From Oceanimonas doudoroffii (GTDB taxonomy: Bacteria; Pseudomonadota; Gammaproteobacteria; Enterobacterales; Aeromonadaceae), in the NCBI RefSeq assembly GCF_002242685.1, contig NZ_NBIM01000003.1:186001-250000 (forward strand): a stretch of DNA of 64,000 bases. Reading direction: 5' to 3'. Below are positions 30,897-44,834 of the stretch, in pieces (the stretch's first letter is position 1; each line of letters opens with the position of its first letter). The notes under the pieces were generated by a model. The model was not told the origin of the DNA, made no database searches, and was given only the letters and a program-made list of their open reading frames with translations. A program made the translations under genes and the position numbers.

Positions 30897-30924
30897 ATTA
30901 TAACAGCTCGAGCAGCTGCTCCAA
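30897..30924 (-). promoter_or_regulatory. uvrD promoter inside the 3' end of yigB
   Basis: Minus strand: -35 TTGGAG (30924-30919), 16 bp spacer, and a consensus -10 TATAAT (30902-30897) overlapping the yigB stop codon. Confidence 0.7.
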
Positions 30925-31605
30925 CCGCGTCAGGGCAACCTGGGGCAAGCATTGCAGATCCGCTTCGGTACGGCCGTTGTCGTTAAGCCACACCGCCTGG
31001 CAGCCGCTATGCACGGCACCGGCCACGTCGGTGCGAATATGATCGCCAATATGCAAAATCTCGGCGTGATTCACCCCGGCCTGCTCTGCCAGCCGGTCAA
31101 ACAGATCCGGCGCCGGCTTCATGCGGCCGTCGGGGCCGGCCTTGAGCACAATCTCGAAATAGGGCGCCAGCTCGGTGTGCTCCAGGGGCATATTGCCGTT
31201 GGTGATCACCGCCAGCCGGTACTTTTCCTTGAGCGTGGTCAGCACGTTATGGGTGGTCTCGGGCACTTTGATTTTGCCGCGCTCGGCCAGAAAGCCCTGA
31301 TAAAAGGTCTCGGCCAACTGCTCCGCTTTATCTTCCGCTACTCCCTGCTGACGCAGGCCCTCGACCAGCACGCGCCGACGGCAGGCGCTGACGTCGTGAG
31401 CCAGCTCTGGCTGCTCGGCAATCAGCCGGCGCTTGATCGCCGCCAGGTTGTCCGCCCCCAGCAGGGTGGACTCGGGGTAATCGTCACGCAGCGCCTGCAG
31501 CAGCCAGTTTTCGGCTGCCGTCATCACCGGCACGTTGTCGTAGAGGGTGTCGTCCAGATCAAAGCTGAGCACCTTTACGGGTGCCATTCGTTTGTAAAAG
31601 CGCAT
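30898..31605 (-). CDS. yigB: HAD-family phosphatase YigB
   Basis: 235 aa haloacid-dehalogenase hydrolase. Motif I SFDLDDTLYD, motif II VITNGN, and motif III/IV GRMKPAPD and HIGDHIRTDVAGA are intact. E. coli YigB dephosphorylates the riboflavin intermediate 5-amino-6-(5-phosphoribitylamino)uracil and FMN. It lies directly before uvrD as in E. coli, but xerC, its usual upstream neighbour, is 12 kb away beyond the accessory island. Confidence 0.93.
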   Translation of the reverse strand: MRFYKRMAPVKVLSFDLDDTLYDNVPVMTAAENWLLQALRDDYPESTLLGADNLAAIKRRLIAEQPELAHDVSACRRRVLVEGLRQQGVAEDKAEQLAETFYQGFLAERGKIKVPETTHNVLTTLKEKYRLAVITNGNMPLEHTELAPYFEIVLKAGPDGRMKPAPDLFDRLAEQAGVNHAEILHIGDHIRTDVAGAVHSGCQAVWLNDNGRTEADLQCLPQVALTRLEQLLELL

Positions 31606-31680
31606 GAGTTTGTTCCATTTGCGGTAAGCATGCAGGGATTGTACTCAAGAAGGCAAGTAAAATCCCTGGCTCTGCAGTAC

Positions 31681-32565
31681 CTATACCCGCCTCCCTCCCC
31701 GTATCGTCTGGGCCAGCTCCGAGATCAGCTCCTTGGTCAGGTGCGCCTTGCTGCTGTCCTCTTTTTCGATCAGCCCCAGTACCCGGTGCGGCGCCTTGTT
31801 GGTAAAGGGAATGCGCTTCAGGGGCAAAGTGCCTGGATACTGAATGCTGGACTGGGGAATGATGGACACGCCCAGGCCGTGATAGACCATGGCGGAAATG
31901 GCCTCCAGGGTATTCAGCTCCATAATGTCGTTCACCACGATTCCCAGATTTTTCAGGTGCTCCTCGATCAACTGGCCGACAAATTCATTTTTGTTGAAAC
32001 GAATAAAGGGATGGGTCTGTAGCAGCACTTCGGGGGGATCATTGGGTGAGTCGATGGGCGCAATAACAATCAGCGGCTCTGCACCAAAGGGGGTCCATTT
32101 CAGCCCCGGACGCTCCGAGGACGTCTCGCTGATAATGGCGGCATCAATCGCGCCTCTGTCCACTTGGGCGATCAGGGAGTTGGACTGGCCGCTGGAGACG
32201 GAAATATGCAGCTGGGGCAATGACTGACGCAGGCTGGCCAGGGCCGTTGGCAGCACCCCGGTCAGCATGGTGGGCACCGAGCCCAGAGACAGCTGTCCGG
32301 ACAGCTTGTCGATAATGGCCGAGGTTTCCATCAGCTGCTCATAATGCCTGACCAGTTCCCTGGCCTTGGGCACCAGGGCCATGCCCACGGCGTTCAGCAC
32401 CGGTGGCCGCCGGGTGCGGTCAAACAGCGATATTTTCAGTTCTTCCTCCAGCGCCTTCATCTGCATGCTCACGGCGGCCTGGGTAATAAACACCGCCTCC
32501 GCCGCTTCCACAAAGGAGCCTTTGTCGGCAATGGCGACGAGGGTTTTCAGGTGGCGAATCGACAT
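31681..32565 (-). CDS. LysR-family regulator of the dicarboxylate island
   Basis: 294 aa with an N-terminal winged helix-turn-helix (residues 1-60, MSIRHLKTLVAIADKGSFVEAAEAVFITQAAVSMQ) and a two-lobed effector domain of the periplasmic-binding type. It diverges from the sdh-like operon across 171 bp that contain a perfect CTTAA-N7-TTAAG palindrome with an internal T-N11-A, the usual LysR box form. The same palindrome lies upstream of tctC, so it probably controls both units. The effector is presumably the island's substrate or an intermediate. Confidence 0.9.
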   Translation of the reverse strand: MSIRHLKTLVAIADKGSFVEAAEAVFITQAAVSMQMKALEEELKISLFDRTRRPPVLNAVGMALVPKARELVRHYEQLMETSAIIDKLSGQLSLGSVPTMLTGVLPTALASLRQSLPQLHISVSSGQSNSLIAQVDRGAIDAAIISETSSERPGLKWTPFGAEPLIVIAPIDSPNDPPEVLLQTHPFIRFNKNEFVGQLIEEHLKNLGIVVNDIMELNTLEAISAMVYHGLGVSIIPQSSIQYPGTLPLKRIPFTNKAPHRVLGLIEKEDSSKAHLTKELISELAQTIRGGRRV

Positions 32566-32608
32566 GTCTGCGGCCTCGGTTGAAGTGGGATCGCCCCTCA
32601 GGGCATTT

Positions 32609-32625
32609 CTTAAGACAATATTAAG
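32609..32625. promoter_or_regulatory. LysR-type operator, site 1 (LysR/sdh intergenic)
   Basis: Perfect inverted repeat CTTAA-N7-TTAAG with spacer GACAATA, 44 bp upstream of the LysR start and 112 bp upstream of the sdhB-like start. It contains T-N11-A. The identical arms and spacing recur at 43879-43895. Confidence 0.68.
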
Positions 32626-32736
32626 TTGTTGTTAAATTTATATCGTTATCATAAGAAAGGCTAGTTAAATATGATGACCTCAGTGAAGTGACAGCCATTG
32701 ATCCCGCAGTCATTTTTCCGACGAGGAACTGAGAGT

Positions 32737-33462
32737 ATGGAAACCAAGCACGAGAAAATAAGCGTATCTATCTGGCGCGGTCAGGAAGACGGTGCATTCG
32801 AAGCCTTTGAAGTTCCCTTTGTGGAAGATCAAACCATCCTGGATCTGCTGACCCATGTTCAGCGCTCCGTGGACAGCTCTCTGTCCTACCGTTTTGCCTG
32901 CCGGGTCGGCATGTGCGGCTCCTGCGCCATGCAGGTGAACGGCAAGCCGCGCTGGACCTGCCGGACCCTGGTTCGCAATGTGGTACAAAACGGGCAATTG
33001 ACCCTCAAACCCCTGGCCAATCTGCCGATCGTCAAGGATCTGGTGGTGGACATGGAGCCATTTTTCAAAAAATGGCAGTCGGCCAAGGGCCGGTTCGAGC
33101 CCGCCCCCGCTCCCGTTGAGCACTTTGTGCCCATCAAGCCCGACGACAAGCAGCGGCAAAAAGCGGACGATGCCATTGAATGCATCAACTGTGGTTGCTG
33201 CTATTCCGCCTGTGACGTGGTGGAGTCCAATCCTGCCTACCTAGGTCCGGCGGCCCTGAACCGGGCCTGGTCACTGATCAACGATGCCAAGGATTACGCC
33301 AACCCGGAACGTCTGATCGCGGTCAGTAGCGATGGCGGCTGTCAGAATTGCCATACCAATTCCCAGTGTGTGGCGCGCTGCCCCCTGGGGCTGAACCCAA
33401 CGCGCTCCATTGCCGGTCTGAAGAAGGCAGTCTCCCTGGCCACGCTGAAGGGGGAAATATGA
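32737..33462 (+). CDS. Succinate dehydrogenase/fumarate reductase-like iron-sulfur subunit
   Basis: 241 aa SdhB/FrdB-type protein. A plant-type [2Fe-2S] domain carries CRVGMCGSC plus a further Cys about 12 residues on. The C-terminal ferredoxin domain has CINCGCCYSACD and later Cys residues (CQNCHTNSQCVARCPLGLNP) for [4Fe-4S] and [3Fe-4S] clusters. It should pass electrons from the flavoprotein to the membrane subunits. It is first in the operon, and its stop overlaps the next start (ATGA). The order B-C-D-A is unlike the housekeeping sdhCDAB, which points to a specialised paralogue. Confidence 0.9.
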   Translation: METKHEKISVSIWRGQEDGAFEAFEVPFVEDQTILDLLTHVQRSVDSSLSYRFACRVGMCGSCAMQVNGKPRWTCRTLVRNVVQNGQLTLKPLANLPIVKDLVVDMEPFFKKWQSAKGRFEPAPAPVEHFVPIKPDDKQRQKADDAIECINCGCCYSACDVVESNPAYLGPAALNRAWSLINDAKDYANPERLIAVSSDGGCQNCHTNSQCVARCPLGLNPTRSIAGLKKAVSLATLKGEI

Positions 33463-33797
33463 ATAAAAGAACCGAATTCAAGCTGTGGCTGGCGCATCGC
33501 CTGAGCGGCATGCTGCTGGGGCTGTTCGTGGTCATTCATATTACCGGCATGATTATCGCGATTCAGGGAGGCCTGTCCGCCTCCGAGATACTGCAGCGAA
33601 CCAGCGGAAACTATTTACTCGGCCTGTTTTATGCCCTGTTTACCCTGGCGGCGGCCACCCATTCCGTTATCGGTCTGCGCACCGTGGCCAGGGAAGTCAT
33701 GGGTTGGCAGGGAACAGGTGCCAACCTGGCGCTGGCCGTCTTTTTCCTGATGCTCTGTATCACGGGTATTTCTGCGGTAGGAGGCCTGGTGCTATGA
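33459..33797 (+). CDS. Membrane anchor subunit 1 of SDH/FRD-like complex (SdhC-like)
   Basis: 112 aa with three membrane helices. The N-terminal LWLAHRLSGMLLGLFVVIHITGM has the Arg-Leu-Ser and His pattern of quinone- and haem-binding cytochrome b anchors. A second His lies at about 70 (AAATHSVIG). It overlaps both neighbours by 4 bases (ATGA), so subunits are made in equal amounts. Assigned by size, topology and position. Confidence 0.8.
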   Translation: MNKRTEFKLWLAHRLSGMLLGLFVVIHITGMIIAIQGGLSASEILQRTSGNYLLGLFYALFTLAAATHSVIGLRTVAREVMGWQGTGANLALAVFFLMLCITGISAVGGLVL

Positions 33798-34132
33798 AAA
33801 AGAACCGAGACAAAAAAGAGTACTGGGCGTCCTTTGTCCAGCGCTGGTCGGGCGTGGCCCTGGCCCTCTTTCTTCCCTTTCACTTTATGGTGCTGAGCCT
33901 GATCTTGCAGGGCCCGGAAGTACTGGACGGCTTTCTTTACTGGGCGGATGCGCCCCTCGTCAAGTTTGCCGAGGCCGGTCTGGTGGGCCTGCTGGCCATT
34001 CACCTGCTGGGGGGTGTCCGGCTGTTGATTATCGAGTTCTTTGCCTGGAAAGAATGGCAGGGCTACCTGATATCCGCTGCCGCCACCGGTGCCGCCGCAA
34101 CAGGTTGTTTATTTCTTCTGAGGGCACTCTGA
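33794..34132 (+). CDS. Membrane anchor subunit 2 of SDH/FRD-like complex (SdhD-like)
   Basis: 112 aa, three membrane helices. SFVQRWSGVALALFLPFHFMVLSL and LLAIHLLGGVRLLIIE keep the Arg/Ser and His residues seen in SdhC/D-type anchors. It starts inside the stop of the preceding anchor gene. With its partner it should tie the flavoprotein and iron-sulfur subunits to the inner membrane and quinone pool. Confidence 0.8.
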   Translation: MKKNRDKKEYWASFVQRWSGVALALFLPFHFMVLSLILQGPEVLDGFLYWADAPLVKFAEAGLVGLLAIHLLGGVRLLIIEFFAWKEWQGYLISAAATGAAATGCLFLLRAL

Positions 34133-34187
34133 GTATTTGGCCTTAAAACATTCGATGGTGTCCTTTGCAGGATAACGAGGGGAATTT

Positions 34188-35933
34188 ATGAATATTGAAA
34201 CCAAACAGACCGATATTCTTATTCTGGGCTCTGGTGGCGCCGGCCTGTTTGCCGCACTGCATTCCTACAGAAGCAACCCGGAACTGAAGATCACCGTGGC
34301 CGTCAAGGGCCTGCTGGGCAAATGCGGCTGCACCCGCATGGTACAGGGGGGCTATAACGTAGCCCTGAATCCGGGGGATTCGGTAGAGCGCCATTTTATG
34401 GATACCATTCACGGCGGCTACTGGATTCCCAACCAGGAGCTGGCCTGGAAACTGGTAGAAACAGCCCCCGGCCGCGTGCTGGAGCTGGAAAACGAGATCG
34501 GCTGTTTCTTTGATCGGGTGGAAGACGGCTCCCTGCACGGCAAGGCGTTCGCGGGCCAGACCTTTGATCGCACTATTCACAAGGGGGATCTGACCGGTAT
34601 CGAGATCATCAACCGGCTGTCCGAGCAGGTCTGGGCCCGTCCCATCGACCGGCTCGAGGATCACAGGGCCATCGAGATTATCAAATCCGAGGACGGCGAG
34701 CGGATTGCCGGCATTCTGATGGTCAACCTGCGCACCGGCAAGCCGCTGTTTGTGCAGGCCAAGGCGGTCATGCTGGGCACCGGTGGCGGCCCGACCATGT
34801 ATCGCTATCACACCCCTTCCGGCGAAAAATCCTGCGACGGCCTGGCCATGGCGCTGCGAGCCGGGCTGAATCTGCGCGACATGGAAATGGTGCAATTCCA
34901 CCCCACCGGCCTGCTGGCAGGAGAAGGTACCCGGCTGACCGGCACAGTGCTGGAAGAAGGGCTGCGCGGGGCCGGCGGACACCTGCTCAATGGCAAGGGT
35001 GAGCGCTTTATGCACTCCTATGACGAGCGTGGCGAGCGCGCCACCCGCGACGTGGTCTCCCGCTCCATTTATCGCGAGATGCGCAAGGGCAACACCACCA
35101 AGAGCGGCGGTGTGCATATCAGCATGGGCCACCTGGGTCCGGACAATGTACGCGAGAAGTTCAAGGGTATGGTCAGCCGCTGCCAGGACGTGGGCGCAGA
35201 TCTCGCCGGCGGTCTGGTGGAGGTGGTGCCCACCGCCCACTACATGATGGGGGGCGTTGAGGTCAACGTGAACTGCGAAACCACCCTGCCGGGGCTCTAC
35301 TGCGCCGGTGAGGATGCCGGCGGCGTCCATGGCGGTAACCGCCTTGGCGGCAACGGAGTGGCCAACTCCACCGTATTTGGCGGCATTGCCGGTGATGTGA
35401 TGGCTGACTGGGTAGAACGCGAGGGTCGCTTTGCCGAGCCGGATCAGGCGAGCATGGCCCGAGCCATGGACTTTATCGAGACCCCCTTCCGCAACCAGCC
35501 GGGGGATCTCAATGACCTTCGTTACCGGCTGCTCGACAAGATGTGGGATGACGCCGGCATTATCCGCAATGCCGAAGGGCTGGAGCGTGCCTACAAGGAT
35601 GTGCTGGCCATTCGTGAAGAGCTGCTGCAACTGGGTATTCCCGAGCGGGCCAAGGCCTATAACCAGACCTGGCACGACTGGCTGAACCTGCATTCCCAGA
35701 TCAGCGTCAGCCTCACCATTATCAAGTCGGCGCAGCTTCGCAAAAATTCCCGGGGCGCGCATTTCCGGGATGATTACCCCGACAAGGGCGATCTGGAGAC
35801 CTCGACCTATATCCGGTCGAGCCAGCATGGCAATGAGATAGCAGTGACAGAAGTTCCGGTGGAGTTCACTCGGGTCAAACCCGGGCAGACCCTGATTATG
35901 GAAGAGCAAGAAGCGAAAATGGGAGTCGCATGA
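34188..35933 (+). CDS. SDH/FRD-like flavoprotein with Cys in place of the flavin-linking His
   Basis: 581 aa FAD subunit. The Rossmann motif ILGSGGAGLFAA (13-24) and active-site elements are present: QFHPTG, EEGLRGAGG, RATRDVVSR, PTAHYMMGG and NRLGGNGVANS. The segment that in E. coli FrdA/SdhA reads RSHTV with the covalently flavinylated His reads here as GCTR, placing Cys48 at that position. FAD is therefore non-covalent or attached differently. FrdA His mutants keep fumarate reduction but lose succinate oxidation, so the substrate is probably not plain succinate. It overlaps the fumarase alpha gene by 4 bases. Confidence 0.88.
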   Translation: MNIETKQTDILILGSGGAGLFAALHSYRSNPELKITVAVKGLLGKCGCTRMVQGGYNVALNPGDSVERHFMDTIHGGYWIPNQELAWKLVETAPGRVLELENEIGCFFDRVEDGSLHGKAFAGQTFDRTIHKGDLTGIEIINRLSEQVWARPIDRLEDHRAIEIIKSEDGERIAGILMVNLRTGKPLFVQAKAVMLGTGGGPTMYRYHTPSGEKSCDGLAMALRAGLNLRDMEMVQFHPTGLLAGEGTRLTGTVLEEGLRGAGGHLLNGKGERFMHSYDERGERATRDVVSRSIYREMRKGNTTKSGGVHISMGHLGPDNVREKFKGMVSRCQDVGADLAGGLVEVVPTAHYMMGGVEVNVNCETTLPGLYCAGEDAGGVHGGNRLGGNGVANSTVFGGIAGDVMADWVEREGRFAEPDQASMARAMDFIETPFRNQPGDLNDLRYRLLDKMWDDAGIIRNAEGLERAYKDVLAIREELLQLGIPERAKAYNQTWHDWLNLHSQISVSLTIIKSAQLRKNSRGAHFRDDYPDKGDLETSTYIRSSQHGNEIAVTEVPVEFTRVKPGQTLIMEEQEAKMGVA

Positions 35934-36871
35934 TGAGCGCAAAACGGATACCCCAGCAACTGGTACTGGAAACGGCAACGGCACTGATGGCACGGGCGGC
36001 AATCGACATTCCCCCCGATTACAAGCAGGCCCTGCAGCAGGCGGCCAGCCAGGAAACCGAAAACCTGTCCTGCTTTGTGATCAAGACCATGCTGGAAAAC
36101 TACGACGTGGCCGAAAAAGACCGCCGACCCATGTGTGCCGACACCGGCCTGCCGCGGTTTTATGTCAAGGCGGGGAACGAGGCCATGGTGGAAGGGGGCT
36201 TTGTGGCCCTGGAACACGCCGTGCGTGAGGCGGTGGTCAGGGGCACCCAGGAGATCCCGCTGCGCCCGAACCGCGTGCATCCGTTAACCCGCAAGGACAA
36301 CAACAACAACCTGGGCATCCATGCTCCGGAAATCGAATATACCTTTGAGCCGGGCGGAGACTGGATTGACCTGATCACCGTGCATAAAGGCGGCCTGTTC
36401 GGTACCGATTACCGTATGTTGTTTCCGGGCGACGGTATCGACGGTATCAAGCGGTTCTTTCTCGACACCATGGCGTCGTTCGGACGCCGGGGCCTGGCCT
36501 GTCAGCCCGCCATCATAGGGGTGGGCCTGGGCGGCAACAAGGACACCTGTATGCGTATTGGCAAAGAAGCCGCCTGTCTGCGGGTGGTGGGTGATGTCAA
36601 CCCGGATCCGGAGGTCGCCAGACTAGAACAGGAGCTGAAAGAGCTGGGCAACAGCATTGGCATGGGGCCCATGGGCTTCAAGGGCAACACCCTGGTGGTC
36701 GACTGCCATGTTGAGGTGGCCTACACCCACACCGGGGGCATGCCAATGAGCATTCATTCCTTCTGTCACTCCTCCCGCCGGGCCGCGGCGCGTATTTACA
36801 GCGATGGCCGGGTGGAATTCAGGGACGATCCCCAGTGGTTCACCGACTTTTATCGCAGGGAGGGTATCTGA
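35930..36871 (+). CDS. Class I fumarase/tartrate dehydratase-like alpha subunit
   Basis: 313 aa, the catalytic half of a two-subunit [4Fe-4S] hydro-lyase (TtdA/class I fumarase alpha). Three Cys at family positions, C69 (CADTGLP), C191 and C279 (SFCHSSRRA), should bind the cluster. It likely adds water to a fumarate-like double bond made by the flavoprotein, or removes it. Class I enzymes act on fumarate, mesaconate or tartrate in different organisms, so the substrate is left open. Translation is coupled at both ends, to the flavoprotein and to the beta subunit. Confidence 0.9.
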   Translation: MMSAKRIPQQLVLETATALMARAAIDIPPDYKQALQQAASQETENLSCFVIKTMLENYDVAEKDRRPMCADTGLPRFYVKAGNEAMVEGGFVALEHAVREAVVRGTQEIPLRPNRVHPLTRKDNNNNLGIHAPEIEYTFEPGGDWIDLITVHKGGLFGTDYRMLFPGDGIDGIKRFFLDTMASFGRRGLACQPAIIGVGLGGNKDTCMRIGKEAACLRVVGDVNPDPEVARLEQELKELGNSIGMGPMGFKGNTLVVDCHVEVAYTHTGGMPMSIHSFCHSSRRAAARIYSDGRVEFRDDPQWFTDFYRREGI

Positions 36872-37605
36872 TGAGCCAGATGAGAGTGGTCAAACTGCAA
36901 GTACCGGTATCCCAGGAAGATGTCGACAAGCTGGAGCAGGGGGATGTGGTTTACCTGACTGGTACCCTCTATACCGCCCGGGAAGGGGTGTACAAAAAAG
37001 TTCTGGAAAGTGGGGATGAGCTGCCGGTCGACATTCGCGCTATATCCAATGTCAACTTTCACTGTTCGCCGGCCGCCAGCCCCAATACCGAAGGAGGCTA
37101 CGATGTGGGCGCGGTGACCGCCACCGCCAGCTTCCGCTTTGGCAAGTGGATGAAGGACTGGTTCGACACCTCCGGCGCCAAGATCATTATCGGCAAGGGC
37201 GGCATGCCGGAAGAAGCCTACCGCGAGGTGTTTATGCCTTATGGAGCCCGCTACCTGTCCACGGTGGGATACGGCGCCGGCGCCCTGCTGGGGCGTGGCA
37301 TCAAACGGGTAAAGGATGTGCACTGGCTGGAAGAAAACGGCATCGCCCAGGCCATGTGGATCTTTGAAGTGGAAGAAATCGGCCCCTTTATTGTTGATAA
37401 CGACCGGGAAGGCAACAGCCTGTTCGTCAACCATGAGCGCGCCGTCAACGCCAAACTGGAAAAGCTGTATGAGGGGCTCAAACCCCCCGCCCTGAAACGT
37501 TACGGTGAAACCACCAGCCGCGCCGATGAAGTGATCGGCGAGCCGGACAATACCCCCATTCAAATTGTCAATGTAATGCCATATCAAGGGAGTGATAAAA
37601 AATGA
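36871..37605 (+). CDS. Class I fumarase/tartrate dehydratase-like beta subunit
   Basis: 244 aa TtdB/fumarase beta-type subunit that completes the active site of the hydro-lyase. Conserved blocks include GDVVYLTGTLYTARE near the N-terminus, GKWMKDWFDTSGAKIIIGKGG and AQAMWIFEVEEIGPFIV. The ATG at 36871 shares a base with the alpha-subunit stop. It overlaps the aldehyde dehydrogenase by 4 bases, placing that enzyme in the same pathway. Confidence 0.9.
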   Translation: MSQMRVVKLQVPVSQEDVDKLEQGDVVYLTGTLYTAREGVYKKVLESGDELPVDIRAISNVNFHCSPAASPNTEGGYDVGAVTATASFRFGKWMKDWFDTSGAKIIIGKGGMPEEAYREVFMPYGARYLSTVGYGAGALLGRGIKRVKDVHWLEENGIAQAMWIFEVEEIGPFIVDNDREGNSLFVNHERAVNAKLEKLYEGLKPPALKRYGETTSRADEVIGEPDNTPIQIVNVMPYQGSDKK

Positions 37606-39092
37606 ACCAGTTAGGACACCATATTAATGGCGAAACCGTCACCGGTCGCGGTGACCGTCACAGCGCGGTATTCAACCCCGCCACCGGCCTGCAGACTGCC
37701 CAGCTGACCCTGGCCACGGGCGCGGAAGTGGAGGACGCCATTCAGGCCGCCACCCGGGCCCTACCTTCCTGGTCGGCCACCCCGGCGGTACGCCGGGCCC
37801 GTATCATGATGAAGTTTCTGCAACTGCTGAACGACAACATCGATGAACTGGCTTTGCTGATCTCCAGGGAACACGGCAAGGTGCTGGACGATGCCAGGGG
37901 GGAAGTTACCCGGGGCATTGAGGTGGTGGAATTCGCCTGCGGCATTCCACACCTGCTAAAAGGCGAATATAGCGAAAACGTGGGCACCCGGGTCGACAGC
38001 TGGTCCGTCCGCCAGCCGGTGGGCGTCTGTGCCGGCATTTCCCCGTTCAATTTTCCGGTCATGGTACCGCTGTGGATGTTCCCCATCGCCATCGCCTGCG
38101 GCAACACCTTCATCATGAAGCCGTCGGAAAAGGACCCCACCAGCACCCTCCGCCTGGCCGAGCTGTTTGCGGAAGCGGGGCTGCCCGCGGGCGTGTTCAA
38201 CGTGGTCAACGGTGACAAAGAAGCGGTGGATACGCTACTGACCCATCCGGGGATCAGCGCGGTCAGCTTTGTGGGCTCCACCCCCATTGCCCGCTATGTA
38301 CAAAGGGTCGGCATCGAACACGGCAAGCGGGTGCAGGCGCTGGGCGGAGCCAAAAACCACGCCATCATCATGCCGGATGCCGATCTGGACTCAACGGTCA
38401 ATGCGCTGATGGGCGCGGCCTATGGCTCGGCCGGCGAGCGCTGCATGGCTATATCGGTGGCCGTGGCGGTCGGTGACATTGCCGACCCTCTGATGGCCGC
38501 CCTGAAGGAACGGTTGGAAGAGTTACGGGTGTTGCCCGGCACTCATCCCGACGCCGAGATGGGGCCACTAGTCACCCGGGAACATCTGGACACAGTGCTC
38601 AGCTTTGTGGACAGCGGCCTGAAAGAAGGCGCCAAGCTAGTCGTCGATGGTCGCCGGACCGATCATCCGGATCACGGAGACGGCTTTTTTATGGGCGGTT
38701 GCCTGTTTGACCATGTCACCCCCGACATGCGCATTTACCAGCAGGAGATCTTCGGGCCCGTGCTCTCCGTGGTGCGGGTGGATGATTATGAGCAGGCACT
38801 GGAGCTTATCAACCGCCATGAATACGGCAATGGCACCGCCATTTTTACCCGCGAAGGACATGCCGCCCGCGAGTTTGCCGCCCGCGTTCAGGCTGGCATG
38901 GTGGGCATTAACGTGCCCATCCCCGTGCCTATGGCCTTCCACAGCTTTGGCGGCTGGAAAGGCTCCCTTTTTGGCGACCATCATATGCACGGCATGGAAG
39001 GCGTGCGCTTCTTCACCAAGCTAAAGACCATTACTTCCCGCTGGCAGGAAAACAACACCCAGTCTCAGTTTTCCATGCCGACCATGAAGTAA
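37602..39092 (+). CDS. MmsA-type CoA-acylating (methyl)malonate-semialdehyde dehydrogenase
   Basis: 496 aa aldehyde dehydrogenase. The catalytic Cys is C281 in GSAGERC. The loop LGGAKNH (248-253) carries Asn where hydrolytic aldehyde dehydrogenases have the general-base Glu, a mark of MmsA enzymes that release acyl-CoA rather than acid. MmsA turns methylmalonate or malonate semialdehyde into propionyl- or acetyl-CoA with loss of CO2. Here it is coupled to a hydro-lyase and a succinate-dehydrogenase-like complex rather than to valine genes, so it probably ends a carboxylate degradation route. Confidence 0.9.
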   Translation: MNQLGHHINGETVTGRGDRHSAVFNPATGLQTAQLTLATGAEVEDAIQAATRALPSWSATPAVRRARIMMKFLQLLNDNIDELALLISREHGKVLDDARGEVTRGIEVVEFACGIPHLLKGEYSENVGTRVDSWSVRQPVGVCAGISPFNFPVMVPLWMFPIAIACGNTFIMKPSEKDPTSTLRLAELFAEAGLPAGVFNVVNGDKEAVDTLLTHPGISAVSFVGSTPIARYVQRVGIEHGKRVQALGGAKNHAIIMPDADLDSTVNALMGAAYGSAGERCMAISVAVAVGDIADPLMAALKERLEELRVLPGTHPDAEMGPLVTREHLDTVLSFVDSGLKEGAKLVVDGRRTDHPDHGDGFFMGGCLFDHVTPDMRIYQQEIFGPVLSVVRVDDYEQALELINRHEYGNGTAIFTREGHAAREFAARVQAGMVGINVPIPVPMAFHSFGGWKGSLFGDHHMHGMEGVRFFTKLKTITSRWQENNTQSQFSMPTMK

Positions 39093-39249
39093 CCGGCCTG
39101 AGTCAGGGCCACGCAAAACGTAAATAAACCCGGGTGCCCGGTTCCCTGACCGGACGCCATGACTGACGGCTTGCTAACGCCTGAGAAAAGCTTCCCTGCT
39201 CCGCAGCAGGCGGCAATAAATATCCAACATTACACGAGTGGAGAAAGTC

Positions 39250-39576
39250 ATGTTTATCGATGAGCGTATTTATACCCTGAAAAACGGCAAACTGGGGGAG
39301 TTCCTCAAGCTGTATGAGGAGCTGGGAAAAGACGTTCAGGTCCGGATTCTTGGCAATATGATCGGCTATTTCCATACCGATATCGGCCCCCTGAATCAGG
39401 TTGTGCATATGTGGGGATATGAATCCCTGGATGACAGGTGGCAACGACGCAAGGAGCTACAGGCCAGTGAGGAGTGGCTGAAGTATGCCCTGCAGATGCG
39501 CCCGCTGGTGCAGAGCATTGAAAACAAGATACTGATCCCCGAGCCCTGGAGCCCCATCGGCGGTAACCAGAACTGA
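39250..39576 (+). CDS. NIPSNAP-family protein
   Basis: 108 aa protein with the NIPSNAP/dimeric alpha-beta barrel pattern: FIDERIYTLKNGKLGEFLKLYEELG, then IGYFHTDIGPLNQVVHMWGYESLDDRWQRRKEL. Its biochemical role is unknown, but such small genes are frequent companions of catabolic operons. The ATG at 39250 has GGAG 8 bases upstream; a GTG at 39238 is less likely. It is 157 bp after the dehydrogenase gene with no terminator between, and an excellent terminator follows it. Confidence 0.85.
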   Translation: MFIDERIYTLKNGKLGEFLKLYEELGKDVQVRILGNMIGYFHTDIGPLNQVVHMWGYESLDDRWQRRKELQASEEWLKYALQMRPLVQSIENKILIPEPWSPIGGNQN

Positions 39577-39598
39577 CTATAATTCCTTATCTTTTTTG

Positions 39599-39631
39599 CA
39601 GCAGGATGTGCTCCCATCCTGCTGTTTTTTT
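39599..39631 (+). terminator. Intrinsic terminator of the sdh-like/fumarase/mmsA operon
   Basis: Perfect 10-bp stem CAGCAGGATG / CATCCTGCTG with a 6-nt loop and seven T, 22 bp after the NIPSNAP stop. Confidence 0.93.
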
Positions 39632-39719
39632 GCCTACCACTTTATGCCGGCGCTCGGCTCATACCGAACGGACTCAACATTTGTTCAAACTGTCAAAGTC
39701 AGGATCTGCCCGCATAAAG

Positions 39720-39740
39720 ATACCGGGTCAAGCCCGGTAT
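39720..39740. repeat. REP-like palindrome
   Basis: Perfect 8-bp inverted repeat ATACCGGG-TCAAG-CCCGGTAT, followed by GGCGG, in the 224 bp between the NIPSNAP gene and the convergent TauE gene. No U-tract adjoins it on either strand. The form resembles dispersed REP-type elements; only one copy is visible here. Confidence 0.45.
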
Positions 39741-39800
39741 GGCGGTATTTTACATGCGACTGGCTGTTAGACATTGATCACTTCTTTAGTGGGGTTGGTA

Positions 39801-40574
39801 TCAGAACCCCGCCAGCAGCAAACGCCCTGCCAGCACTACTCCAAAGAACAGCAAAAACAGCCAGATCACCTTCTGAAACAGCTCCGCATTCATGCTGCCG
39901 GTTAACCGATTGCCCACCAGGGTGGCCAGCGCGGCCAGTGGCAAAAACAGCAGGTAAAATCCGACAAGACGGGGCGTGATCAGGCCGGCAGACACGTACC
40001 CCACCGGGATCAGCACACCACTCAGAATATAAAAGCCGCTGATGGTACTTTTGAACTGGCTCTGGCTCCAGCCACGCAGACCCCCGTAAATGGTAAAGAC
40101 GATGCCCCGCAGGGCATAGGCCGAGCCCAGCATACCGGCCAGACCGCCAAAGAAATAGCTCCAGCCATCTCCCTTCAGCTGGAAACCGGGATTCGGCAAC
40201 AGCTTCCAGCAGGCCATGGAGATAAGCAGTATGCCCAGCAACCCCTTCACCACCTGCTCATTGCCCAGGCTCAGCAGCAACACACCCAAGGGCACTCCCA
40301 GCAGGGCCGCAATGGTGGTTCGCTTCAGGGAGCCGGCCTGCAGGTAATGCCGGTCTTTCCACAGCGCCATAAAGGAAATGGTGGTGGACAGACCGATCAG
40401 CAGGGGTACTGCCTCCCGCAGCTCGATAAACAGGGTCAGCAGCGGCACCGCCACCAGACCATCGCCAAACCCGATGGCAGCCCGCAATAGCAGGGCCACA
40501 AACAGGATTAAAGCGATATAGCCCAGATAACTCACGTTCATCGCAAGGCCTAGGGATGAAAGCACATAGTCCAT
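39801..40574 (-). CDS. TauE/SafE-family permease
   Basis: 257 aa, about eight membrane helices in two repeats, with the family pattern RAAIGFGDGLVAVPLLTLF near the N-terminus and GGLAGMLGSAYALRG at the start of the second half. TauE/SafE proteins export organic anions such as sulfite or sulfoacetate. Here it may move a product or substrate of the neighbouring route. The ATG at 40574 follows AAGGAGA. It lies behind the tctA terminator, so it depends on read-through or its own promoter. Confidence 0.88.
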   Translation of the reverse strand: MDYVLSSLGLAMNVSYLGYIALILFVALLLRAAIGFGDGLVAVPLLTLFIELREAVPLLIGLSTTISFMALWKDRHYLQAGSLKRTTIAALLGVPLGVLLLSLGNEQVVKGLLGILLISMACWKLLPNPGFQLKGDGWSYFFGGLAGMLGSAYALRGIVFTIYGGLRGWSQSQFKSTISGFYILSGVLIPVGYVSAGLITPRLVGFYLLFLPLAALATLVGNRLTGSMNAELFQKVIWLFLLFFGVVLAGRLLLAGF

Positions 40575-40599
40575 TATCGATTCTCCTTGAAGACATTGA

Positions 40600-40634
40600 T
40601 AAAAAAATGGCTGCCAACACGGGTTGACAGCCAT
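40600..40634 (-). terminator. Terminator after tctA
   Basis: 12-bp stem ATGGCTGTCAAC / GTTGGCAGCCAT (one G-U pair, loop CCGT) followed by seven T on the minus strand, between tctA and the TauE gene. Confidence 0.88.
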
Positions 40635-40659
40635 TGTTCAGCCGAACAAATAAAACCAA

Positions 40660-42180
40660 CTATTGAAGAGATGAGGCTACGGTCGTTCCTCCTTTTTTCT
40701 TACTCTTTCCACAAAAGTGGCTTTTGACAAGAAAGAATACGGTCAGCGCGGTCAGGGACCAGAATACCCAGGTGATCACTCCACGGAACAAAATACCGAA
40801 GTCACCGTTGGACATCAGCATGGATTGTCGGAAATTGTCCTCAAGCAGCGGGCTGAGAATAAAGGCAATCAGAAAAGGCGCCGAGGGCACATCCAGCCGC
40901 AGAAAGAGATAACCCAGCAGGCCCAGAACAAACATCACCACAATATCAAACATGGAGTTGTTCACCGCATAGGCGCCATAAACACAGAGCACCAGCACCG
41001 CCGGCATAAGTATGGACTTAGGTACGTCCGCCACAAATCTGAAAATGCGAATGGAGAATCCGCCGATAAAAAACAGGAAGAAAGAACTTAACAGCAGCCC
41101 CATAAAGAGGGCATACACCAAGCTGCCATTGGTCTCAAAAAGCATGGGGCCGGGCTGAATGCCGTGGATCATAAAGGCGCCGATAATAATAGCGGTGATC
41201 ACATCACCGGGAATGCCCAGCGCCAACAAGGGAATAAGGGTAGAGCCGCACACCCCGTTATTGCCCGCTTCCGCCGCGGCTACCCCTTCTATTTCCCCCT
41301 TGCCAAAGTTCTGCTTGTTGCAGGACTTGCGTTTGGCCTCACTGTAGGACAGAAAGGCGGCAGGGGCGGCGCCGATACCCGGAATGGCCCCGAGCACCAC
41401 ACCGATAAAACTGCCCCGGCAGATGGAGCGAAAACAGCGCTTGTATTCCTGCAGGGACACCAAGTTGCTGCCCAGCTGGCGCACCTTGCCGTTGTCATCG
41501 GACGGGTTCAGGGCAAAGGCAATAATCTCCGGCAGGGCAAACAGGCCGATAAGCACCACAATAAAGTTGAGCCCGCTCATCAGATCCACACTGCCCATGG
41601 TGAAGCGATCAGTGCCGTACACCAGATCCAGGCCAACGGTGGCCAGCAGCAGCCCCAGCGCGGCAGAGAACAGCCCCTTCATCAGGTGTTCACCGGAAAT
41701 ACCGGCAATGATCATTAGGGAGAACACCATCAGGGTGAAATATTCAGGCGGGCCAAAGCTCATAGCGAACGACGCCAGCCAGCCGGCAAACATAATCAGG
41801 GACAGGTTAGAAATGATGTCGGCGGTACAGGACGCATACAGCGCCATGCCCAGCGCCTTGCCCGCCTGGCCCTTGTCGGCCATGGGGTAGCCGTCCAGAA
41901 TGGTGGCACTGGACGCCGGCGTACCCGGTGTCTTGATCAGAATGGCCGGTATGGAGCCTCCAAAGACGCCTCCCTTGTAAACCCCCAGCAACAGCAGGAT
42001 GCCCACCACGGGCTCAAGGGCAAAGGTAAAGGGCAGGGTCAGCGCCACCGCCATGGTGGCGGACATGCCGGGAATGGCCCCACAGATAACCCCCACGGCC
42101 ACCCCCACCGCCAGAGCCAGAATACTGCTCCACTGGGCAACCATGGAAAAAGCATCAAGCATTGTATCAAGCATACTCAT
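40660..42180 (-). CDS. tctA: Tripartite tricarboxylate transporter large membrane subunit TctA
   Basis: 506 aa, about 12 helices. The signature VGVICGAIPGMSATMAVALTLPFTF is near the N-terminus, followed by GGVFGGSIPAILIKTPGTPASSATILDGYPMA; the second half has the matching repeat GVVLGAIPGIGAAPAAFLSY. It carries the transport path for a carboxylate delivered by TctC. It is coupled to tctB by a 4-base overlap. Confidence 0.95.
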   Translation of the reverse strand: MSMLDTMLDAFSMVAQWSSILALAVGVAVGVICGAIPGMSATMAVALTLPFTFALEPVVGILLLLGVYKGGVFGGSIPAILIKTPGTPASSATILDGYPMADKGQAGKALGMALYASCTADIISNLSLIMFAGWLASFAMSFGPPEYFTLMVFSLMIIAGISGEHLMKGLFSAALGLLLATVGLDLVYGTDRFTMGSVDLMSGLNFIVVLIGLFALPEIIAFALNPSDDNGKVRQLGSNLVSLQEYKRCFRSICRGSFIGVVLGAIPGIGAAPAAFLSYSEAKRKSCNKQNFGKGEIEGVAAAEAGNNGVCGSTLIPLLALGIPGDVITAIIIGAFMIHGIQPGPMLFETNGSLVYALFMGLLLSSFFLFFIGGFSIRIFRFVADVPKSILMPAVLVLCVYGAYAVNNSMFDIVVMFVLGLLGYLFLRLDVPSAPFLIAFILSPLLEDNFRQSMLMSNGDFGILFRGVITWVFWSLTALTVFFLVKSHFCGKSKKKGGTTVASSLQ

Positions 42181-42671
42181 GGCAACCTCATCATTTCACT
42201 TTGGGGAATACTGATACCGGCCACATGATAAAAGAATGCGTACAGAGTAATGGGCAGGAGAATACCGACGAGCACGGCGGAAATACGATACTGGGTTTTG
42301 CAGATCACGACGGAAAGCAGAATATAGGCAATACTGGACCCCCATACCATGCCCAGATCAGGGAGCAGAAGGTAATAACCGGTAAAAAACAAAACAAGGA
42401 GCAGCAGATACCACTCCTTTTTACAGGCCAGCAGGCCATTATTTCCGGATGATTCCGCCTTCTGTTTTTTTGACAGTGAGGAGGCCATCATGGCAAGGCC
42501 AATCAGCAACATCATCCATGAGATAACATTGGGCCAGAACGCAGGGTCTAGCACCAGCAACCTGACATTAGCCGGCGACACCACCGACGCCGGCACAATA
42601 TAATAAATCAGCATCAGGGACAGGAGTAATACTCCAGCTCCGATGGAGAAGTCTCTGTTTTTAAAAACCAT
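42177..42671 (-). CDS. tctB: Tripartite tricarboxylate transporter small membrane subunit TctB
   Basis: 164 aa, four hydrophobic helices, typical poorly conserved TctB profile; assigned from topology and position between tctC and tctA. A strong hairpin lies in the 63 bp between tctC and this gene, so it may be made in smaller amounts than the binding protein. Confidence 0.85.
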   Translation of the reverse strand: MVFKNRDFSIGAGVLLLSLMLIYYIVPASVVSPANVRLLVLDPAFWPNVISWMMLLIGLAMMASSLSKKQKAESSGNNGLLACKKEWYLLLLVLFFTGYYLLLPDLGMVWGSSIAYILLSVVICKTQYRISAVLVGILLPITLYAFFYHVAGISIPQSEMMRLP

Positions 42672-42701
42672 GAAGTAAACCTCATGAATATTAAAAGGTG
42701 A

Positions 42702-42722
42702 TGCGCACCCTGAAGGTGCGCA
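42702..42722 (-). terminator. Intercistronic hairpin between tctC and tctB
   Basis: Perfect 8-bp stem TGCGCACC-TTCAG-GGTGCGCA without an immediate U-tract. It fits an mRNA-stabilising or partial-termination element that raises the binding protein over the membrane subunits. Confidence 0.6.
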
Positions 42723-42734
42723 AAATATGGCTTA

Positions 42735-43721
42735 TTAATTAATTTGCATATTTAGCTTGACCACCAGCTCCCTGAAGGCGAGATACTGACCGTTAATAAA
42801 AGTTTCCGACTCCTCCGGCCCCATATTCACCACAATAGAGCCCAGTTTTTCCATGCTTTCTACAAAGGTGGGATTATGCGTGGCGGTATGCATCCACTTT
42901 ACCCAAGCTGCAGCCACTTCGGGTTCTAATGATTTGGGGCCGGCAATACCAGTCCAGCCAAGCAATGTCTCCAGTTCGGGGTGCTCCAGCTCCGCCGCCG
43001 TGGGGGCATCTATGCCCGGCAATCTTTCCTTGGTGGTGACCAGCAGGGGATTAACCTGGCCGTTCCTGATAAAACCGGCCACCGCCGCCGAGCTTTCACA
43101 CAAGAAGGTGGCGGTGCCGTTCAATACCGCCGTCGCCGCTTCACCGCCTCCCCTCATGGGCAGGTGCACCGTGCTTTCTAGAGGCTTATCTACCCCAAAG
43201 GCATTCATCACCATGGCGCCGGCCAGATGCTGCAACGAGCCAACCCCCGAGGAGCTGTAACTGACGCTACCCGGTTCGGCATGCACCTTGTCTACCAGCT
43301 GGTGAATGCTTTCTATACCACTCTCTTTGCTGGTAATGCACACCACCGGATTGATTTCGTAAACCCCCACCATTTTGAAGTCGTCCAGCTGGTAAGGCAA
43401 AGTCTGCTTCATAGCGGGGTTGACCGTGTGGGAGCCCACCCGGGCGGCCACCATGGTATAGCCGTCCCCCCGGCTGTGAGCGACAAAGGCCGAGCCAGCG
43501 GCGCCCCCCGCCCCAGTGCGGTTTACCAGCACCAAGGGTTTCGACACCTCATCCGCCATCGCCTGGGCTAGGGCACGTGCCGAAATGTCCGTGACCCCAC
43601 CGGTACCATAGGGGATCACCAGAGAAATGGGGCGACTGGGGTATTCTGCATAAGCAGGGCCAGCCAGAGCGATACCGGCGCCTAACAGCAGAGAGGTTTT
43701 GAGCAGGTTACTTATAGCCAT
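42735..43721 (-). CDS. tctC: Tripartite tricarboxylate transporter solute-binding protein TctC
   Basis: 328 aa periplasmic binding protein of the Bug/TctC family, with a Sec signal peptide (cleavage after AYA, about residue 25). The family motifs are YPSRPISLVIPYGTGGVTDISARALA and VLVNRTGAGGAAGSAFVAHSRGDGYTM. It captures a carboxylate for TctAB. A Cys and several charged residues replace parts of the usual ligand loop, so the substrate is not assignable. The promoter region upstream holds the second copy of the island's palindrome. Confidence 0.94.
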   Translation of the reverse strand: MAISNLLKTSLLLGAGIALAGPAYAEYPSRPISLVIPYGTGGVTDISARALAQAMADEVSKPLVLVNRTGAGGAAGSAFVAHSRGDGYTMVAARVGSHTVNPAMKQTLPYQLDDFKMVGVYEINPVVCITSKESGIESIHQLVDKVHAEPGSVSYSSSGVGSLQHLAGAMVMNAFGVDKPLESTVHLPMRGGGEAATAVLNGTATFLCESSAAVAGFIRNGQVNPLLVTTKERLPGIDAPTAAELEHPELETLLGWTGIAGPKSLEPEVAAAWVKWMHTATHNPTFVESMEKLGSIVVNMGPEESETFINGQYLAFRELVVKLNMQIN

Positions 43722-43908: not shown

Positions 43909-43931
43909 AAAAAGGGTTATTCACCCTTTTT
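43909..43931. terminator. Terminator overlapping the xerC stop codon
   Basis: Stem AAAAAGGGT / ACCCTTTTT with a 5-nt loop holding the xerC stop; the A/T ends give a U-tract in either direction. It closes the lptM-lysA-dapF-DUF484-xerC operon. Confidence 0.8.
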
Positions 43932-44834
43932 ACGTTTGGCCCTGGGGTGAGCCTGATCGTAGGCGTTGGCCAGGTGCTGAAAGTCGAGGTGGGTGTAGAT
44001 TTGGGTGGTGGCCAGATCGGCGTGGCCCAGCAGCTCCTGCACCGCGCGCAGGTCGCCGCTGGACTCCAGCATATGGGTGGCGAAAGAGTGGCGTAGCTTG
44101 TGGGGGTGCACATGGCTGGACAGCGCCTGCTGCTGGCCCCGTTTGGCCAGGCGCAGTTGTACGCTGCGGTGGGTAATGCGCCGGCGCTGCTTGCTGACGA
44201 ACAATGCCGGTTCGTCGGGGCCGGCCAGCTCGGGGCGCACGCTCAGCCACTTTTGCAGCCAGTCCAGTGCCATGCGCCCCACCGGTAGCACACGCTCCTT
44301 GTTGCCCTTGCCGGTCACCCTGACCTGGCGCTCGGCAAACTGCACATCCCCCAGGTTGAGCGCCACCAGTTCGGCCAGACGCAGGCCGGAGGAATACATC
44401 AGCTCCATGATGGCCCTGTCCCGTACCGCCAGGGGGTCGGATTCATCCAGATTCATCAGCTGATGCAGCTCGTCCACGTCCAGGTTTTTGGGCAACGGCC
44501 GGCCCTGCTTGGGCGCGCTTACCCCCTTGGCGGGATTGGCGTCAAGCCGGCCAGTGAGCACCAGCCAGTCGCAAAAGCTGCGCAGGGCGCTGAGCCGGGC
44601 GGCGATGGAACGGGGTGACAGCCCCTGCTTGTGCATGCGGGTGGCCAGGCCCCGGGCATGGGCCACCGAGAGATGTTGCCAGTCGGTCAGGTGAAGATCG
44701 GTCAGCTGTTCGCTCATGGCGCCCAGATGCCGGCGGTAGTTGTCCAGGGTATGCGGGCTGAGCTGGCGCTCCACCCGCAGGTAATCGAGAAAATCGGTTA
44801 CCTTACCGGCCAATGCCGGTTCAGGCGTGGCCAT
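43917..44834 (-). CDS. xerC: Site-specific tyrosine recombinase XerC
   Basis: 305 aa recombinase that with XerD resolves chromosome dimers at dif. The catalytic set is complete: R152 (SSGLRLAEL), K176 (GKGNK), H245 and R248 (HPHKLRHS), H271 ([10 protein letters not shown]) and nucleophile Y280. The N-terminal SAM-like domain covers about 1-100. It overlaps the DUF484 gene by 14 bases, as in other gammaproteobacteria. Nothing marks it as a mobile integrase; it is the housekeeping copy. Confidence 0.97.

Follow-up and report, generated by a model that had tools for sequence, protein, structure and literature searches.

A horizontally spread gene island of Oceanimonas doudoroffii and its candidate role in 3-sulfopropionate dissimilation

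Related systems and a candidate route

The DNA analysed here is a stretch of 64,000 nucleotides from Oceanimonas doudoroffii (contig NZ_NBIM01000003.1, positions 186,001 to 250,000; hereafter the window), in which yigB and xerC lie 12 kb apart and enclose a gene island encoding a LysR-type regulator, an SdhBCD complex with its flavoprotein, a two-subunit hydro-lyase (HydAB), MmsA, a NIPSNAP protein, TauE and TctCBA. 3-Sulfopropionate (3-SP), the sulfonate analogue of succinate, arises from homotaurine and from fermenters of 2,3-dihydroxypropane-1-sulfonate (DHPS) or sulfoquinovose; a title cited in PMC11489063 has C. necator H16 convert homotaurine to 3-sulfopropanoate. According to excerpts of PMC11489063 (2024), its degradation by bacteria was unreported apart from a thesis, and Bilophila was found respiring it, by a mechanism that an excerpt of a 2026 review (PMC12890257) calls unclear. 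The thesis, as quoted in PMC11489063, has Roseovarius nubinhibens (strain ISM) degrade homotaurine-derived 3-SP via sulfoacrylate and sulfolactate, and the passage names no genes. That route shares its first intermediate with the one proposed below and is fitted by the operons that we call type II, whereas the window island has MmsA and no SuyAB-, SlcC- or ComC-like genes. The sulfolactate set SuyAB, SlcC and ComC forms a branch with TauE in P. wurundjeri and others (excerpt of PMC12421959); the logic of sulfite release and export is alike and homologues stand beside many type II operons, but homologues of SuyB, ComC and SlcC were not found in the genome of the window. With respect to the enzymes, the island dehydrogenase resembles complex II (SdhABCD/FrdABCD) in having four subunits of the same Pfam families (FAD_binding_2 with Succ_DH_flav_C, iron-sulfur and Sdh_cyt anchors), and HydAB resembles class I fumarase and TtdAB in its two-subunit alpha/beta layout, its Fumerase and Fumerase_C domains and its three cluster cysteines. 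Mesaconase-type enzymes, too, are class I fumarases with a substituted fumarate as substrate, but they use C4/C5 diacids without a sulfonate (PMC4682846, in part). No assignment of genes to 3-SP degradation was found in the accessible portions of the open-licence literature, nor any characterised pathway with exactly the gene set of the island, as the first-pass annotation had supposed.

On balance, and with a confidence only slightly above even, we consider that the island provides for the uptake and complete dissimilation of 3-SP. TctCBA would import 3-SP, and the membrane-bound SdhBCD-flavoprotein complex would oxidise it to 3-sulfoacrylate with transfer of electrons to quinone, in the manner of complex II acting on succinate. 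HydAB would add water at the sulfonate-bearing carbon of 3-sulfoacrylate, and the resulting alpha-hydroxysulfonate would lose sulfite to leave malonate semialdehyde; alpha-hydroxysulfonates fall apart to sulfite and an aldehyde, and malonate semialdehyde belongs to the substrate class of MmsA. MmsA would then yield acetyl-CoA and CO2, and TauE would export the sulfite. Gene context and sequence are the basis on which the substrate, the two enzyme reactions, the regiochemistry of the hydration and the exported ion are predicted, and a sulfonate is proposed because genes for sulfite and sulfolactate, as well as TauE, recur beside the same flavoprotein. The first-pass annotation had read the region as an inserted catabolic island for uptake of a substituted succinate or related acid, its quinone-linked desaturation, its hydration and the CoA-acylating oxidation of a semialdehyde. 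This outline holds, with the related acid most likely being 3-SP; the substrates named there are not supported, and methylsuccinate, mesaconate, itaconate, tartrate and tricarballylate were set aside as first choices because of the repeated occurrence of sulfur genes around these enzymes, a meaning of TauE that had been missed although the gene was listed.

Neighbours of the flavoprotein in two operon types

Relatives of the window flavoprotein were examined at 86 other loci, the best 80 of at least 572 contig relatives plus six plasmid loci from 15 plasmid matches, and operons were typed by the identity of HydA to the window protein, with at least 55% defining type I. Counting the window with the 86 loci gives 87 flavoprotein sequences, of which 26 belong to type I, the type of the window; a window-like HydA is encoded downstream of the flavoprotein in 26/26 of these. 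Type II contains 49 sequences, with a HydA of about 36% identity located upstream of the flavoprotein in 49/49, and the remaining 12 show no HydA match.

Gene content was compared in the 61 of the 86 loci that reach 15 kb (19 type I, 37 type II and five without a HydA match; L139-L147 are excluded, and L140 and L008, each of 40271 bases, are probably one contig). These loci share ancestry and Fisher p values computed from them are optimistic. SuyB-like proteins are encoded in one of the 19 type I loci versus 24 of the 37 type II loci, ComC-like proteins in two versus 24, and SlcC-like proteins in two versus 15. MmsA (at least 55% identity) is found in four type I loci, besides the window and a second genome of the genus, versus none of type II, NIPSNAP in four versus none, TctA (at least 50% identity) in five versus none, SorA/T-like proteins in two versus none, and YeiH in three versus one; TauE is found in nine and 25, respectively. 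Since the enzymes that accompany type II operons resemble those of sulfolactate metabolism, one would expect the acid that the shared flavoprotein oxidises to yield sulfolactate after desaturation and hydration, and because these partners would act on C3 sulfonates, 3-SP fits better than a C4-C6 acid. Release of sulfite one step earlier is proposed for the window because its island has MmsA in place of SuyAB-, SlcC- and ComC-like genes.

The sulfur-linked neighbourhoods are a computed result, and TauE was also compared with chance. Of 19 loci tested, 15 have a TauE, while 0.42 are expected from 112 TauE matches over about 121 Mb in 19 genomes; this expectation, calculated for TauE only, uses a gene density from rounded genome sizes and Pfam counts, while presence at the locus was scored by BLASTP to a reference TauE. 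Some type II loci form a single run of SuyAB, SdhBCD, in some cases TauE (L008 and L142, but none in L146), an ABC transporter, HydAB, flavoprotein and SlcC/ComC. Among individual neighbourhoods, the conjugative plasmid of Pseudomonas sp. MPC6 also encodes a relative of the YeiH sulfate exporter, another TauE and a sulfite dehydrogenase (SorT, 666.9 bits against a cut-off of 570) with a cytochrome c. Paracoccus versutus, whose operon is of type I, shows YeiH, NIPSNAP and TauE followed by Ldh-family and hydroxyacid dehydrogenases and genes of the tripartite tricarboxylate transporter (TTT) family, with a UxaA-family (SuyAB-like) pair about 16 kb beyond the LysR gene of the operon and then a sulfate exporter. 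M. radiotolerans has a UxaA pair, dehydrogenases of the Ldh-family and hydroxyacid kinds and TauE, and NT-25 has YeiH, NIPSNAP, TauE and an annotated sulfolactaldehyde 3-reductase. The UxaA pair with two dehydrogenases is read as SuyAB, SlcC and ComC by its match to the set described in the accessible part of PMC12421959. Cluster 3 of P. wurundjeri in that paper may likewise be a type I operon, which we regard as a lead. The type I operon of the Cocleimonas genome (L076) is accompanied by NIPSNAP, TauE and TctCBA, and the kind of transporter differs among loci (ABC, TTT or TRAP).

At the level of whole genomes, SuyB-like proteins (at least 67% identity) were found in 14 of the 14 type II genomes tested. 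Searches for SuyB (E<=1e-60), ComC (1e-30) and SlcC (1e-60), which did not include SuyA, gave no match in the window's own genome, in the second genus genome with the island or in the Cocleimonas genome.

Other genes were also observed near these operons. An acetolactate-synthase-family, thiamine pyrophosphate (TPP)-dependent enzyme is encoded in six of the 19 long type I loci and 17 of the 37 of type II (L084, L086, L056, L075, L076 and others); two such enzymes reached no cut-off among the 25 NCBIfam families compared for each. Three type I operons (L069, L075 and L085) have aconitase X genes in their vicinity. Near the type I operon of Sulfitobacter THAF37, a gene at L084 24496-25668 is annotated as 3-sulfinopropanoyl-CoA desulfinase, a further link to C3 sulfur acids.

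Active sites and competing explanations

HydA (35930..36871, + strand) is a class I fumarase/TtdA-like alpha subunit (PF05681; TIGR00722, 230.1 bits against a cut-off of 100.65), and HydB (36871..37605, + strand; start read in the DNA as ATG 36871) is a beta subunit like TtdB and the C-terminal domain of FumA (PF05683). HydA scores below the cut-offs of PRK06246 and PRK08230, and HydB below that of TIGR00723 (119 against 145.15). The active-site residues of the L. major class I fumarase, including Gln134 and Thr468, are listed in the accessible text of PMC10602362, and their numbers were placed on HydA and HydB by our own alignment-based mapping. The three cluster cysteines and equivalents of Asp135, Arg173, Arg421, Thr467, Arg471 and Lys491 are present in 26/26 type I hydratases and His334 in 25/26, but Gln134 is replaced by Ala (13) or Gly (13) and Thr468 by Ala in all 26, so that type I departs from the full L. 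major set at both positions. In type II, position 134 is Gln in 45/49 (three gaps and one Asp) and position 468 is Thr in 48/49 (one gap). The existence of two hydratase types that differ in these residues is thus established by computation. The window HydA has CADTG for CQDTG, and its HydB has TATASFR in place of the TTS.R of fumarases; C[A/G]D[T/S]G is seen in all of the 120 best HydA homologues, while the single-chain fumarase of the window's genome keeps Gln134 and Thr468. At E <= 1e-60, 3712 HydA homologues were found, not necessarily all of the island kind. Marinobacterium aestuariivivens has relatives of HydA and of the flavoprotein. The window's genome also encodes a further class I hydratase alpha subunit with a canonical CQDTG beside a LysR-like open reading frame (L134, G000:C1:1478655-1479464); the second genus genome with the island has no corresponding third PF05681 match.

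The flavoprotein (34188..35933, + strand; PF00890 and PF02910) belongs to the SDH/FRD superfamily and has an altered substrate loop according to alignments to E. coli FrdA and 7d6v. It shares H238, R287, H351 and R385 with complex II, and differs from it by Cys48 for His, a six-residue insertion, Glu256 and a score below the TIGR01812 cut-off (419.6 bits against 567.3). Cys48 aligns with what we take to be the covalent-FAD His of E. coli FrdA and is Cys in 87/87 flavoproteins; the motif GCTRMVQGG is present in 118 of 120 homologues, the exceptions, P0007 and P0057, covering only 91 and 77% of the query. The loop contains R249, T251-G252-T253 and E256, with Glu256 in place of the residue that is presumably Thr244 of FrdA. 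H238, T251, G252, T253, E256, R287, H351 and R385 are invariant in the 87 sequences, and R249 is found in 85. The substrate-site residues are thus common to types I and II, and because the sites match, both types probably dehydrogenate the same substrate and differ in the hydration step. The two types are not cleanly separated in the flavoprotein tree, in which the type II sequence L046 lies among those of type I. In L022 and L038 (Hyphomicrobiaceae/Hyphomicrobium) the flavoprotein has no SdhBCD or HydAB match within 10 kb.

More tentatively, and with somewhat less than even confidence, these flavoproteins may form a complex-II-like clade of many proteobacteria that oxidises an organosulfonate, possibly with a cysteinyl-FAD, and that is paired with two alternative class I hydratases, of which the window's, with its rebuilt site, would hydrate the sulfonate carbon and so break the C-S bond by hydration. 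To our knowledge, such hydration-type desulfonation differs from the routes that use a lyase, TPP, radical chemistry or an oxygenase. If these proposals are true, genes would be assigned to a gap in 3-SP degradation, a single kind of dehydrogenase would feed two routes of C-S cleavage, two enzymes of the citric acid cycle would have modified relatives in sulfonate catabolism, and a role would be given to part of the large protein set named fumarate reductase, L-aspartate oxidase, fumarate hydratase or tartrate dehydratase.

Several observations weigh against the proposed route. TauE is absent from 10 of the 19 long type I loci and MmsA from 15, no MmsA match lies near the Cocleimonas operon, and in L014 a type I operon is accompanied by the complete sulfolactate set. 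The names SuyAB, ComC and SlcC are based on homology, with no match to a SuyAB-named NCBIfam family and a ComC-type score of 160.1 against a cut-off of 500; the YeiH-like matches stay below the TIGR00698 cut-off, and the NT-25 sulfolactaldehyde reductase, at 324.3 bits, is just under its family cut-off of 348. The window's genome encodes Xsc (1028.5 bits against a cut-off of 676.4), because of which sulfoacetaldehyde is probably usable by this organism, and a sulfite-oxidase-family protein that scores 224 bits where the SorA cut-off is 600 and has counterparts in the three other genus genomes searched. Apart from the two genus genomes with the island, 14 type I genomes were tested, and eight of them have a SuyB homologue. 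Five MmsA-family genes of the window's genome exceed the TIGR01722 cut-off, only one of them in the island, and MmsA commonly serves valine and inositol catabolism. TauE-family proteins may export other anions, and the available part of PMC11489063 describes one of them, in E. gilvus, as probably exporting 3-SP.

The Xsc and SuyB findings would suit an alternative in which 3-SP is dehydrogenated likewise but HydAB hydrates C2, giving sulfolactate, perhaps in the R form, which is processed elsewhere, e.g. via sulfopyruvate, sulfoacetaldehyde and Xsc, with MmsA as a passenger or serving another substrate. Sulfolactate is the intermediate reported in the thesis cited by PMC11489063 (seen in part), and ComC/SlcC-like genes stand beside type I operons in L087 and L014. 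We nevertheless hold this alternative to be unlikely: the two genus genomes with the island lack SuyB, ComC and SlcC matches (a search that did not extend to further sulfolactate dehydrogenases or to sulfopyruvate decarboxylase), mmsA and hydB share a four-base overlap and are adjacent on the MPC6 plasmid too, and two active-site residues of fumarases that persist in type II have been lost from type I. Rather less likely still is a different sulfonated analogue of a dicarboxylate, for example sulfosuccinate, which would pass through equivalent steps and give up sulfite after hydration. The sulfur-linked neighbours suit any sulfonate, and the enlarged flavoprotein loop could accommodate a bulkier substrate; however, the product would be oxaloacetate, for which no MmsA is needed, and the type II partners are of the C3-sulfolactate type while the flavoprotein-site residues are common to both types. 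Sulfosuccinate was not mentioned among the listed matches in the open-licence literature.

A non-sulfur substituted succinate or related acid, such as those named in the first-pass annotation, is improbable. Mesaconate and tartrate are among the substrates of class I fumarases (PMC10602362 and PMC4682846, both in part), and the TTT family name and the SDH-like sequence agree with such a substrate, but it would leave unexplained the TauE, YeiH, SorT and SuyAB-, ComC- and SlcC-like neighbours and a dehydrogenase of the malonate-semialdehyde type. Genes for citramalate activation or citramalyl-CoA lyase are not among the identified island genes, the genome not having been searched for them. 3-Nitropropionate, a known complex II ligand, could on paper follow the same chemistry, through 3-nitroacrylate and hydration with loss of nitrite to malonate semialdehyde and MmsA. 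This is very improbable, since the genes that recur nearby are sulfur-related (no search was aimed at genes for nitrite handling) and the route described in the accessible part of PMC9552603 starts with propionate-3-nitronate monooxygenase. We give equally little credence to a loose assembly of genes that belong to different known pathways and share no substrate: MmsA and TauE are widespread families, but the operon overlaps, the same set is found on a Pseudomonas plasmid, and the placement of HydA is fixed within each type. Mercaptosuccinate degradation in Advenella (PMC5373536, in part) was also considered and rejected; TTT and TauE occur there, but with a mercaptosuccinate dioxygenase, and neither 'succinate dehydrogenase' nor 'nipsnap' appears in the available text.

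Insertion, spread and layout of the island

The island is an accessory, horizontally spread catabolic unit, because it is carried by two of 23 genus genomes, a copy lies on the MPC6 plasmid and the flavoprotein occurs sparsely. XerC, used as bait, matches in all 23 genomes and is followed by YigB in 21; in the other two, the window's own genome and a second one, it is followed by TctC. UvrD comes next after YigB in 19 of those 21, the examined stretch ending earlier in the other two. This bears out the insertion between yigB and xerC claimed by the first-pass annotation; wide conservation of the genes beside yigB in relatives, which would have spoken against it, is not what these genomes show. 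The second genome has all 13 island genes, with protein identities of 77-99%. At E <= 1e-100 the flavoprotein was found in two of 61 genomes (own and relatives), and in a sample of 369 genomes of the class, own included, it was found in nine. In the empty-site comparison with five relatives, homology ends at 31605-31651 on the left and resumes at 43921-43937 on the right. GC content in 2-kb windows is 0.52-0.60 over the island against about 0.59-0.66 elsewhere in the window. No tRNA was found in the 64 kb, and no transposase is among the identified genes, no repeat or mobile-element search having been made. The MPC6 conjugative plasmid has the whole set, with TctCBA-TauE arranged differently and identities to the window of 89% for the flavoprotein, 93% for HydA and 90% for MmsA.

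The island is flanked on the left by YigB (30898..31605, - strand), encoded next to XerC in 21/23 genus genomes, and on the right by XerC (43917..44834, - strand), found in 23/23; every gene named in the first-pass annotation is present between them. The LysR-type regulator (31681..32565, - strand; PF00126 and PF03466) is divergent from the operon and exceeded no cut-off among the 25 of 50 NCBIfam families compared. The operon, on the + strand, has the order sdhB-sdhC-sdhD-flavoprotein-hydA-hydB-mmsA, with the subunits in the order B-C-D-A. The SdhB-like iron-sulfur subunit (32737..33462; PF13085; TIGR00384, 191.9 bits against a cut-off of 88) is read from ATG 32737, the mechanical open reading frame beginning at TTG 32698. 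It is followed by the SdhC-like (33459..33797) and SdhD-like (33794..34132) membrane anchors, both PF01127, whose starts were read in the DNA as ATG 33459 and ATG 33794, and, after the flavoprotein and HydAB, by MmsA (37602..39092), a CoA-acylating (methyl)malonate-semialdehyde dehydrogenase (TIGR01722, 689.2 bits against a cut-off of 448.5, and solved relatives). Read in the DNA, five of the six junctions overlap (sdhB/sdhC, sdhC/sdhD, flavoprotein/hydA and hydB/mmsA by four bases, hydA/hydB by one), in line with the 1- or 4-base overlaps claimed earlier for nearly every junction, and the sixth, sdhD/flavoprotein, is a gap of 55 bases.

TauE and TctCBA, like LysR, are encoded on the strand opposite to the operon. 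The TauE/SafE-family permease (39801..40634, - strand; PF01925, 69.2 bits against a cut-off of 32.6), from a family enriched at these loci, is a probable sulfite exporter. TctA, TctB and TctC were assigned by identity to annotated proteins of Pseudomonas sp. MPC6 and not by Pfam: TctA (40660..42180, - strand; 87%) is the large permease of tripartite tricarboxylate type, TctB (42177..42671, - strand; 50%) the small permease, and TctC (42735..43721, - strand; 67%) the periplasmic substrate-binding protein. Between MmsA and TauE lies the NIPSNAP-family gene (39238..39576, + strand; PF07978, 99.5 bits), whose copies are 70-90% identical in L076, L083, L087 and L088, and 70-99% when L139 is included. 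Its close solved relatives are named hypothetical or uncharacterized protein, and at the loci examined it accompanies type I operons only.

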